Below, piece after piece: positions 2,699-13,489 of a stretch of DNA of 33,670 nucleotides. Origin of the DNA: Gammaproteobacteria bacterium (GTDB lineage: Bacteria; Pseudomonadota; Gammaproteobacteria; Porifericomitales; Porifericomitaceae); the NCBI GenBank assembly GCA_014238615.1, contig JABAAT010000037.1:1-33670 (forward strand), written 5' to 3'. The first letter of the stretch is position 1; every line of letters starts with the position of its first letter. The notes beneath the pieces were generated by a model that saw only the letters and a program-made list of their open reading frames with translations, ran no database searches and was not told where the DNA came from. Made by a program: the position numbers and the translations under genes.

Positions 2699-3219
2699 CG
2701 GCCAAAGCGCTCGGGATGCGCCCAGTGACGACTATTCAACCAACGCGGTACGGGCCGGGGTGTCCCGCGTGAAGAACGGTAAAAACAAACTGGAGCACCA
2801 TCCGAAGTACGGCAGGACAACTCCAGGCGTAACCCCAGGCCCAACAGGTCGGCATGCCATTGGGCGCCCTCCGGGAATTCCCCTCCGAGTACGGCCAGCA
2901 ACAATTCACGGGCGTAACAATCGCGCAGGCGCGCCACCAGTTGATGCCAGGCGGTCGCCGAGCTGCCCTCGGAAAGCACTTCGGAACGCACCGCAAGCAG
3001 TACCAGGTCGAATTCCCGGCCCAGGCGCGGCAACACGCAAGGCGGCACATCCAGGCGCTCCAGTTCCACGTTGCCCGGCAAACAACAAGGAAAGTCTTCC
3101 CTGGCGCCGACAAGAAGCACGGATGCCGGCCGTAGTTCTTCCAGCAGCTTTTCCCAATGCGTCGTGCAGACGGGCAGCTCGCGCGGCGGCTCCGAAGCAT
3201 CGGCGCACACTTTGCCCAC
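2686..3219 (-). CDS. DUF6231 family protein inside the glc operon
   Basis: A 177-residue soluble protein of unknown function. The GTG start at 3219 abuts the glcD stop directly (TAG then GTG), and GGAG sits 9 nt upstream inside glcD. The C-terminus, WLNSRHWAHPERFGRCRW, matches the conserved tail I recall for DUF6231 proteins of Pseudomonas (WLN-[SA]-K-[YF]-WANPE-x-[WF]-GKYWW). The middle, LRPASVLLVGAREDF followed by a short beta-alpha pattern and EFDLVLLAVRSEVL, resembles a degenerate Rossmann or methyltransferase-like core, but no SAM motif is clear. Its place between glcD and glcE, overlapping both genes' ends, argues that it is co-expressed with glycolate oxidase. The functional link is inference. 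Confidence 0.8.
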   Translation of the reverse strand: MGKVCADASEPPRELPVCTTHWEKLLEELRPASVLLVGAREDFPCCLPGNVELERLDVPPCVLPRLGREFDLVLLAVRSEVLSEGSSATAWHQLVARLRDCYARELLLAVLGGEFPEGAQWHADLLGLGLRLELSCRTSDGAPVCFYRSSRGTPRPVPRWLNSRHWAHPERFGRCRW

Positions 3220-4701
3220 CTACAGGCGCTCCAGTTCGGGGAAGGGCACACGCCCCCCGTGCACATGCATGCCGCCCAGTTCCACGCAGCGCCGCAGCAG
3301 CGGTACGGCCTTCCCGGGATTGAGGCGTCCGGCTGGATCAAAAGCCTGTTTCACCGCATGCAACTGGGCCAGTTCCACCGGGCTGAACTGGCTGCACATC
3401 GGATCCAGCTTTTCCACGCCCACACCGTGCTCACCGGTCACGGTACCGCCTTCGGCCACGCAAAGTTCCAGAATGCGCTTCCCCAACTCCTCCACCCGCT
3501 GCAATTCCCCGGGACGTTGATTGTCATAGAGCACCAGGGGATGTAAATTCCCGTCCCCGGCGTGAAACACATTCACCACGCGCAGATCGTAAAGCCGCGA
3601 CAGCTCGGCGATGCGTTCCAGCACCGCGCCGAGACGGTGACGGGGAATAGTGCCATCCAGGCAGTAATAATCCGGCGCCAGGCGCCCCACCGCCGGGAAG
3701 GCAGCCTTGCGCCCGGCCCACATGCGCGCACTCTCCGCCGCGTCGCGCGCGGTGCGCAGGGAAGTGGCTCGCCGCTTGCGAAAAATGTCGGCGACGTGCT
3801 GCAGTCCGGATTCCACTTCCTCTTCCTCGCCATCGATCTCGCACAAGAGCAACGCGGCGGCCTCGGTGGGGTAACCGGCCTGCATGTACGCCTCCACCGC
3901 CTGGATGCAACCCTGATCCATCATCTCCAGGCCGGCCGGGATGATGCCGGCGCCGATCACATCCGCCACCGCCCGCGCCGCGTCTCCGACATGTCCGAAA
4001 CCGGCCAACAACACCCGGCTGCACGCCGGGCGCGGCAAAAGACGCACGGTGATTTCAACGATCACGCCCAGCATGCCCTCGGAACCGCACAGCAGGGCGA
4101 GCAGGTCGTAGCCCGCCTGATCCAGGGCGCCGCGTCCCAGTTCCAGGGTTTCTCCATCACAATCAAGCAATTTCAGCGCCTGGATGTTATGCACGGTCAG
4201 GCCATACTTAAGACAGTGGACTCCCCCGGAATTCTCCGCCACATTGCCCCCGATGCTGCAGATCACCTGGGAGGAGGGATCCGGGGCGTAGAACAGGCCG
4301 TGCGGCGCCGCCGCCTCGGACAATGCCAGGTTGCTCACCCCCGGTTGCACGCGCGCCAGGCGGGCCCGTACATCCAACTCGAGGATGCGGTTCAAGCGTG
4401 ACAGGCCGAGCAGTACACCCTCGGCATGCGGCAAGGCGCCACCGGACAGACCGGTGCCCGCGCCGCGGGTGACAACCACCGTCTCCAGCTCCCGGCACAA
4501 ACGCAACACGGCGCGCACCTGCTCCACCGTATCCGGCAACACCACGCACAAGGGCAACCTCCGGTAAGCGGTCAGGCCGTCGCATTCGTAAGGCCGCATG
4601 CCTTCCCGGTCGGAAATCAGCGCTTCCGCGGGGAGGATTTCGGCAAGCCGTCGCAGCAATTCGCGGCCTCTGGAGACAGAGCTGGAAAGCTGGGCAACCA
4701 T
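3220..4701 (-). CDS. glcD: Glycolate oxidase FAD subunit GlcD
   Basis: Catalytic FAD-linked subunit of glycolate oxidase, 493 residues (E. coli 499), full length. FAD-binding type 4 motifs are RGAGTGLSGG at 79-88, PDPSSQ at 140-145 and GGNVAENSGGVHCLKYG at 151-167. The C-terminal FAD-oxidase part carries VNVFHAGDGNLHP and GEHGVGVEK. The tail MHVHGGRVPFPELERL matches the GlcD end, which separates it from D-lactate dehydrogenases. The start is the ATG at 4701. It has no clear Shine-Dalgarno, and an inverted repeat sits directly against it. It is the first gene of the operon, divergent from yhdP. No glcC regulator is present in the window. Confidence 0.96.
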   Translation of the reverse strand: MVAQLSSSVSRGRELLRRLAEILPAEALISDREGMRPYECDGLTAYRRLPLCVVLPDTVEQVRAVLRLCRELETVVVTRGAGTGLSGGALPHAEGVLLGLSRLNRILELDVRARLARVQPGVSNLALSEAAAPHGLFYAPDPSSQVICSIGGNVAENSGGVHCLKYGLTVHNIQALKLLDCDGETLELGRGALDQAGYDLLALLCGSEGMLGVIVEITVRLLPRPACSRVLLAGFGHVGDAARAVADVIGAGIIPAGLEMMDQGCIQAVEAYMQAGYPTEAAALLLCEIDGEEEEVESGLQHVADIFRKRRATSLRTARDAAESARMWAGRKAAFPAVGRLAPDYYCLDGTIPRHRLGAVLERIAELSRLYDLRVVNVFHAGDGNLHPLVLYDNQRPGELQRVEELGKRILELCVAEGGTVTGEHGVGVEKLDPMCSQFSPVELAQLHAVKQAFDPAGRLNPGKAVPLLRRCVELGGMHVHGGRVPFPELERL

Positions 4702-12050: not shown

Positions 12051-12090
12051 AGTTGTCTTCAGATGATGAAAACCGTAGAAAACTAAACAA

Positions 12091-12141
12091 TTATAGTTAT
12101 TATAGGTAACTATAGTATATTATATGGAGAACTATAGTATA
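12091..12141. promoter_or_regulatory. AT-rich block with ACTATAGT palindromes
   Basis: This strongly AT-rich block lies in GC-rich DNA upstream of the five-HTH gene. AACTATAGTATA occurs as a direct repeat at 12108-12119 and 12130-12141, 22 bp apart (about two helical turns). Each copy contains the perfect palindrome ACTATAGT. A related ATAGTTA at 12094-12100 pairs with TAACTAT at 12107-12113 as an inverted repeat. The TATAGT hexamers could also be -10 elements. This is a candidate promoter-operator, possibly for autoregulation by the downstream HTH protein; that link is inference. Confidence 0.5.
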
Positions 12142-12334
12142 GTGATACGGAAAACTTCGGCCAACGGATAACCGCTTTAAGGCGCTGATTCACCAGCGCC
12201 TCCTGGCAAGGATGAACAGCAACCGGTAAAGAGTGCCAAGGCGATAAAAGATAAAGACACTCGAGACTCTCACTCCATAATCTATTCCGGCATTTCGCAC
12301 TTTCTTTAAACCGATCACTCAAAAGGCATGTACC
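12142..12334 (+). promoter_or_regulatory. Leader of the five-HTH gene
   Basis: No ORF here is convincing. A hairpin GGCGCTG-ATTCAC-CAGCGCC lies at 12181-12200 with no T-run. A CATAAT at 12276-12281 is a possible second -10. AAAAGG at 12321-12326 is the ribosome-binding site, 8 nt before the ATG at 12335. If transcription starts at the AT-rich block, the leader is about 190 nt long. Confidence 0.4.
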
Positions 12335-13489
12335 ATGCGTTCAAATAAAATGACCTCCTTATCCACCTCTCGTCTTACCGGTAAAGGCATCGCCTCCCTG
12401 CGCAGGCGGAGCGGGCTCTCCGCCGCCAAGCTCGCCAAGCGCATCGGCGTCTCCGTCAATACCGTCTACCGTTGGGAAACTTCTAAATCCCCGATCAAAC
12501 TTCGGGCGCGCTCCCGCCACGCACTGGACGCACTGCCCGGGGGCTCCACCGGGCGGGCCTCCGCCCAAGCCCAAGGCCAATCCCAAGGCCAGGCCAAACG
12601 CGGCGGCACCTACAGCGGCAGGACCATCAGCGCACTGCGCAGGCAGAGCGGGTTCTCCGCAGCCAGGTTCGCCAGGCGCATCGGTGTCTCCGGCAATACC
12701 GTCTATCGTTGGGAAACCTCTAAATCCCCGATCAAACTACAGGCGCGCTCACGTCGCGCACTGGATGCACTGTCCGGGGGCTTCACCGGGCAGTCCTCTG
12801 CCCAAACCCAAAGCCAATCCCAAAGCCAGGCCCAAAGCCATCCCAAACGCGGCGGCGCTTACAGCGGCAGGACCATCAGCGCACTGCGCAAGCAGAGCGG
12901 TCTCTCCGCAGCCAAATTCGCCAGGCGCATCGGCGTCTCCGTCAATACCGTCTATCGTTGGGAAACCTCTAAATCCCCGATCAAACTCCGGGCGCTCTCC
13001 CGCCGCGCCTTGGATGCCATGCCTAGGGGCTCCACCGGGCGGCCCTCAGCCCAGACAAAGACCCAAAGCCATCCCAAACGCGGCAGCGCTTACAGCGGCA
13101 GGACCATCAGCGCACTGCGCAAGCAGAGCGGTCTCTCCGCAGCCAAATTCGCCAAGCGCATCGGCGTCTCCGTGAACACCGTCTATCGTTGGGAAACCTC
13201 TAAATCCCCGATCAAACTCCGGGCGCTCTCCCGCCGCGCCCTGGATACCATGCCCAAGGGCTCCACCGGGCGGCCCTCAGCTCAGACAAAGACCCAAAGC
13301 CATCCCAAGCGCAGCGGCACATACAGCGGCAAGACCATCAGCGCACTGCGCAGGCAGAGTGGACTCTCCGCAGCCAAATTCGCCAGGCGCATCGGTGTCT
13401 CCGTGAACACCGTCTATCGTTGGGAAGCCTCTCGATCCCCGATCAAGCTCCGGGCCCGATCCCTCCATGCCCTGCGCGCCCTGCAGTAA
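12335..13489 (+). CDS. Protein of five tandem XRE-type HTH domains
   Basis: A 384-residue, highly basic protein of unknown function. After 15 leader residues it consists of five near-identical units at 16-94, 95-177, 178-254, 255-331 and 332-384. Each unit is a roughly 52-residue XRE/Cro-type helix-turn-helix ending in ALDAL or a close variant. Units 1-4 end in a 25-31 residue linker rich in Gln, Ser, Thr, Lys and Arg; unit 5 has none. The recognition-helix segment SVNTVYRWE is the same in all five except Val to Gly in unit 2, so all should read the same or nearly the same DNA motif. Units 3 and 4 are both exactly 231 bp and differ at only about a dozen to fifteen bases by eye, implying recent duplication. 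Acidic residues are few. There is no sensor, oligomerisation or catalytic domain. A good Shine-Dalgarno supports the start. It could be a multivalent repressor or a nucleoid-architectural protein. Confidence 0.9.
   Translation: MRSNKMTSLSTSRLTGKGIASLRRRSGLSAAKLAKRIGVSVNTVYRWETSKSPIKLRARSRHALDALPGGSTGRASAQAQGQSQGQAKRGGTYSGRTISALRRQSGFSAARFARRIGVSGNTVYRWETSKSPIKLQARSRRALDALSGGFTGQSSAQTQSQSQSQAQSHPKRGGAYSGRTISALRKQSGLSAAKFARRIGVSVNTVYRWETSKSPIKLRALSRRALDAMPRGSTGRPSAQTKTQSHPKRGSAYSGRTISALRKQSGLSAAKFAKRIGVSVNTVYRWETSKSPIKLRALSRRALDTMPKGSTGRPSAQTKTQSHPKRSGTYSGKTISALRRQSGLSAAKFARRIGVSVNTVYRWEASRSPIKLRARSLHALRALQ
12380..13486 (+). repeat. Intragenic tandem repeat of 231-249 bp units
   Basis: Five in-frame DNA units start at 12380, 12617, 12866, 13097 and 13328, with lengths of 237, 249, 231, 231 and a terminal 159 bp. 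Similarity is high at the DNA level including synonymous sites, and highest between units 3 and 4. The length differences lie in the linker regions, for example in the runs of CAA/CAG-AGC codons of unit 2. Copy number is likely to vary by recombination. Confidence 0.9.

Follow-up and report, generated by a model that had tools for sequence, protein, structure and literature searches.

Regulators of the XRE (Cro/C1-type) class normally carry a single helix-turn-helix (HTH) domain and dimerise on a palindrome. A eukaryotic precedent for a chain with several HTH units is Drosophila Pipsqueak, in which tandem PSQ HTH repeats read a repetitive DNA motif. In bacteria, the Wolbachia prophage WO regulators (wmk, WD0508) contain two XRE HTH domains per chain (PMC6736233; PMC11376236). 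The HTH controller protein C.Esp1396I controls its own gene via operators with GAC-TATA-GTC symmetry (PMC3758141). Two tandem XRE HTHs are also present in Pseudomonas plasmid proteins (P0001; L030, positions 3001-3441), which are small chains with no other domain found. The L030 open reading frame has matches in 129 plasmid records, and it is absent as a gene from its annotation table.

The window, that is, the whole stretch of 33,670 nucleotides analysed here, contains a gene whose product carries five XRE-type HTH units (Table 1). The gene is intact and uses codons within the native range: the in-frame score of 0.173 lies within the 0.159-0.354 of 16 neighbouring genes, and the other frames tested scored negative. 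Its flanks are housekeeping genes, with gltX upstream and purB downstream and convergent, and no toxin, endonuclease, methylase or phage gene was recognised beside it among the open reading frames of the window. As computed from the sequence, the protein has a pI of 12 and a net charge of about +70. Its 384 residues include only 9 that are acidic (5 Glu, 4 Asp) and no Cys.

Table 1. Features of the five-HTH gene and its upstream region (window positions).
Feature	Position	Strand	Basis
Five-XRE-HTH protein, open reading frame, 384 aa	12335..13489	+	open frame, ATG start
HTH unit 1	12380..12538	+	Pfam, unit alignment
HTH unit 2, recognition helix V>G	12617..12775	+	Pfam, unit alignment
HTH unit 3	12866..13024	+	Pfam, unit alignment
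HTH unit 4, 96% DNA identity to unit 3	13097..13255	+	Pfam, unit alignment
HTH unit 5, C-terminal	13328..13486	+	Pfam, unit alignment
Linker 1, Q/S/G-rich, basic	12539..12616	+	low pLDDT
Linker 2, Q/S-rich	12776..12865	+	low pLDDT
Linker 3	13025..13096	+	low pLDDT
Linker 4, near-copy of linker 3	13256..13327	+	low pLDDT
Phased TATAG array, proposed operator cluster	12089..12142	+	TRF, shuffles, genome scan, PWM scan
Sigma-70-like match TAGAAA-16-TATTAT, overlaps array	12076..12103	+	weak evidence
Sigma-70-like alternative AAGACA-16-CATAAT, nearer start codon	12254..12281	+	weak evidence

The Pfam models HTH_3 and HTH_31 each matched five stretches of the protein above cut-off, and Pfam identified no domain other than the XRE HTH. 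The units that were tested singly also passed both cut-offs, with 36-37 bits against 23 for HTH_3. Each unit is 53 residues long, with starts at residues 16, 95, 178, 255 and 332, and linkers of about 23-29 residues, rich in Q, S, K and G, follow units 1-4. The recognition segment reads GVSVNTVYRWE in units 1, 3, 4 and 5 and GVSGNTVYRWE in unit 2, and most positions of the HTH core are invariant across all five. These results bear out an earlier sequence-only reading, which had claimed five XRE-type units with the same recognition segment and a single substitution in unit 2, joined into a flexible, basic chain without any other domain. That reading had also claimed near-identity at the DNA level, which holds for units 3 and 4 (95.7%) and not for units 1, 2 and 5, which have clearly diverged: all other pairs show 76.5-88.3% identity in DNA and 76-83% in protein. 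Its proposal of a recent expansion or gene conversion agrees, as to expansion, with the equal 231-nt repeat and near-identical linkers of units 3 and 4, a pair that looks recently duplicated. Tandem Repeats Finder (TRF) described the gene as 4.5 copies with a period of 231 bp (score 1428). Since the end units are the most diverged and the middle pair the most alike, the pattern would fit stepwise unequal crossing-over, and the gene is consistent with growth from one XRE-type HTH domain through successive internal duplications. In the unit pairs computed, dN was lower than dS (for example, 0.13/0.41 for units 1 and 3, and 0.025/0.10 for units 3 and 4).

A single unit is predicted to adopt a compact, four-helix, lambda-repressor-like fold. 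The AlphaFold2 model of unit 4, made from an eight-row alignment, has four helices and a pLDDT of 89. Its best Foldseek matches were XRE proteins, among them repressors, antitoxins and controllers of restriction-modification systems: the CapH N-domain, HipB, HigA2, C.BclI, C.Kpn2I and P22 c2, all with probability 1.0, TM-scores of about 0.6-0.75 on the query and E-values of about 0.008-0.03, none below 0.001. When the full chain was modelled alone, the five HTH modules reached a pLDDT of about 75-83 (overall mean 63.7), and the linkers were of low confidence and modelled as disordered.

The HTH_3 scores of single units and the fold of the unit model place the units in the XRE/Cro-C1 HTH superfamily, but five HTHs per chain depart from its typical architecture of one. 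The units share domain and fold with XRE factors (HTH_3, PF01381; HTH_31, PF13560), whereas the protein has five units, a charge of +70 and neither a dimerisation nor a ligand domain. The Pseudomonas plasmid proteins differ in having two mutually diverged units in 146 residues. The Wolbachia wmk-type regulators, which we liken by their published description, have two units and belong to another bacterial lineage and a prophage setting. Pipsqueak, with an unrelated HTH type and a BTB domain, is an analogy only. Restriction-modification (RM) controller proteins have the XRE fold in common with the units, C.BclI and C.Kpn2I being among the best structural matches, but they are single-HTH dimers. 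Assignment to this group was rejected, as it calls for linked endonuclease and methylase genes, and RM genes were not recognised among the open reading frames of the window.

We found no second multi-HTH homologue in the genome itself (1.67 Mb) or in 4 genomes of the order, and no multi-unit homologue in 369 genomes of the class, 398 of the phylum, the GTDB genome contigs (one single-HTH match), phages or plasmids; IMG/VR returned single-HTH proteins only. These searches were samples or scans seeded with exact peptides, which could miss a distant homologue, and the genus is represented by one genome. The HTH array was not found in the gltX neighbourhood of the two order relatives in which it was read, and the family and order searches did not find the gene elsewhere in those relatives. 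All related open reading frames examined from the 369 class genomes carry one HTH. The sequences of the class closest to the unit (about 30-32% identity) are the single C-terminal XRE HTHs of SWIM-zinc-finger proteins. These resemble the units in the strand-helix pattern around 'K[LI]KL' and in the basic low-complexity stretch before the HTH, but differ in that one HTH ends a larger protein.

In three of the loci compared (L011, L012 and L013), an SNF2-type helicase gene is followed by one for a SWIM-zinc-finger protein that has a basic tail and ends in an XRE HTH. This conserved pair spans several families of the class; L057-L060 probably belong to the same group. The single-HTH SWIM protein of L012 (1-2514), from one genome of the class, also lies just downstream of gltX, on the opposite strand. 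This position may possibly reflect a shared insertion site, the source of the unit, or chance.

Our literature search for bacterial proteins with HTH domains in tandem or in multiple copies did not turn up a named family. The earlier reading likewise knew of no named family with this architecture, and the five-unit chain was not found elsewhere. XRE chains with two units do exist, so the architecture extends a known tendency and is not wholly alone.

Upstream of the gene, 190-245 bp from its start codon, lies an array of five TATA(G/T) elements, AATTATAGTT (12089), TATTATAGGT (12098), AACTATAGTA (12108), TATTATATGG (12118) and again AACTATAGTA (12130), with an additional TATAG at 12138. The TATA cores start at 12092, 12101, 12111, 12121 and 12133, giving spacings of 9, 10, 10 and 12 bp, each close to a turn of the helix, and TRF independently reported periods of 10 and 22. 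The shuffle tests were devised after the array had been noticed. With dinucleotide shuffling, none of 20,000 intergenic sequences and one of 20,000 versions of the AT-rich 71 bp reached a five-element chain. With the motif left floating (7-mers with one mismatch), the counts were 0 of 300 and 0 of 1000, respectively; within the 71 bp, alternative motif settings yielded 0.003-0.02. A scan of the genome (1.67 Mb) located the pattern TATA-N4-8-TATA-N4-8-TATA at this one place. Because a GC-rich genome is expected to contain few such patterns by chance, the absence elsewhere is weak evidence, and the information lies in the occurrence upstream of this gene. The sequence ACTATAGTATA has two exact genomic copies, both in the array, and the PWM scan of the window revealed no further cluster.

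A perfect ACTATAGT palindrome occurs at two of the elements, which lie 22 bp apart. A pair of heads could therefore sit on each palindrome in a dimer-like manner, a reading just as possible as a single head on each element. The AAC-TATA-GTA-type palindromes are similar in form to the GAC-TATA-GTC of C.Esp1396I, although the outer GAC/GTC is replaced by AAC/GTA or AAT/GTT. The phased cluster lends unexpected support, at the level of sequence, to the earlier suggestion that the protein binds with avidity where copies of one motif are clustered.

Other repeats and leader features were also recorded. A 31/32-bp tandem repeat opens the contig (window 2-245; 7.8 copies; TRF consensus CGGGCGGCTTCCAGCCGCACTGAAAGTTTCAT), and contig C56 begins with the same repeat on the other strand (8-121). 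The two contigs probably adjoin across it. As a candidate binding cluster this repeat was rejected since it bears no resemblance to the upstream array and was found only at the two contig ends. Between the array and the start codon, the leader holds a perfect 8-bp hairpin, AGGCGCTG-ATTCAC-CAGCGCCT (12180-12201). Folding of the leader (12140-12340) was only slightly better than that of shuffles (z -1.45), and no Rfam family other than tRNA was present in the window.

Our model suggests that the five-HTH protein is a lineage-specific, multivalent XRE protein that binds the upstream array and controls its own gene, a reading to which we give an even chance. Its parts differ in strength. Multivalent DNA binding is likely, and autoregulation through the array is about evenly balanced. 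The primary specific target would be the TATAG array, where several heads on adjacent, helically phased sites along one DNA face would provide avidity, and the linkers would let neighbouring units occupy successive major grooves. The geometry would allow this, since the elements lie 31-41 angstroms apart and a linker of 23-29 residues could reach across up to about 80 angstroms or more. Occupancy of the array may repress or tune the promoter; repression would be the plausible sign, given the sigma-70-like matches of both strands with which the array overlaps. When the protein is abundant, its high positive charge may add non-specific coating and bridging of DNA. Bridging or condensation is possible, on the grounds of charge and valency.

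A stricter version of the model, which we consider unlikely, has five modules binding the five elements in register, protein and operator having expanded together into a self-limiting switch. Its logic would be comparable to that of zinc-finger arrays, and the register of one head per element is speculative. Several points speak against array binding in general: the lack of homologues leaves the array without a phylogenetic footprint, TATA-rich DNA upstream of a gene may also serve as promoter, and the array, about 190 bp from the start codon, has only a candidate link to a promoter.

The main rival, less probable than the array-binding model but deserving serious weight, is that the protein is a histone-like, nucleoid-associated bridging or condensing factor, whose weakly specific heads coat and cross-link the genome. 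It would have no dedicated operator, and the array would merely be an AT-rich promoter region; such a role may coexist with autoregulation. The extreme pI and charge with few acidic residues, the linkers modelled as disordered and the lack of a motif cluster elsewhere in the genome to mark a regulon all suit this explanation. However, non-specific binding does not require a recognition helix that is nearly identical among the units, the phasing of the array would be a coincidence, and core nucleoid proteins are usually conserved, whereas this gene is absent from relatives of the same order. That absence, shared by every collection searched, and the stepwise repeat expansion would also suit an orphan gene of recent origin that does little or nothing, an HTH fragment that unequal crossing-over has expanded and that is now drifting. 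We find drift improbable given a frame that is intact over five units, dN/dS below 1 between units, native-range codon usage and a largely invariant HTH core.

The two remaining explanations concern the gene model and its name. Repeat units could have been created or miscounted in the draft, as the genome is in 75 contigs and tandem repeats are a known assembly risk. An assembly error is nevertheless unlikely at this gene, and we regard a repeat count that is purely artefactual as very improbable. The longest exact internal repeats, 69 bp and 63 bp, are shorter than the usual read length, so the units should be resolvable by ordinary reads. Every unit also has private substitutions, and a collapse would hide copies, not invent diverged ones.

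We can hardly credit membership in an XRE antitoxin, Xer-activation or phage-repressor family (MqsA, HipB, NadS, RstR, VC1465), even though the whole protein exceeds the NCBIfam cut-offs of TIGR03830 (124.5 against 61.8), VC1465_fam (92 against 70), couple_hipB (88 against 71.65), RstR (88.5 against 80) and NadS (76.6 against 60). These passes arise because five repeats are summed; a single unit, at 18-30 bits, falls short of them all. For the MqsA family (TIGR03830), a unit reaches 28-30 bits and the Cys-free protein cannot hold the CxxCG zinc motifs. For the VC1465/Xer activation factor (NF040522), it reaches 23-24.5 bits. The gltX and purB neighbours likewise offer no recognised partner of the kinds sought. 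An automated pipeline would probably misname the gene as MqsA, VC1465, HipB, RstR or NadS, and the locus illustrates an annotation trap in which scores summed over repeats exceed the cut-offs of several unrelated models for antitoxins and phage regulators.

If the five-HTH protein does read the upstream array, this would show that internal duplication can provide bacteria with DNA readers of the repeat-array type. Five heads facing a five-element operator would then be a system in which to dissect avidity, linker length and site spacing.
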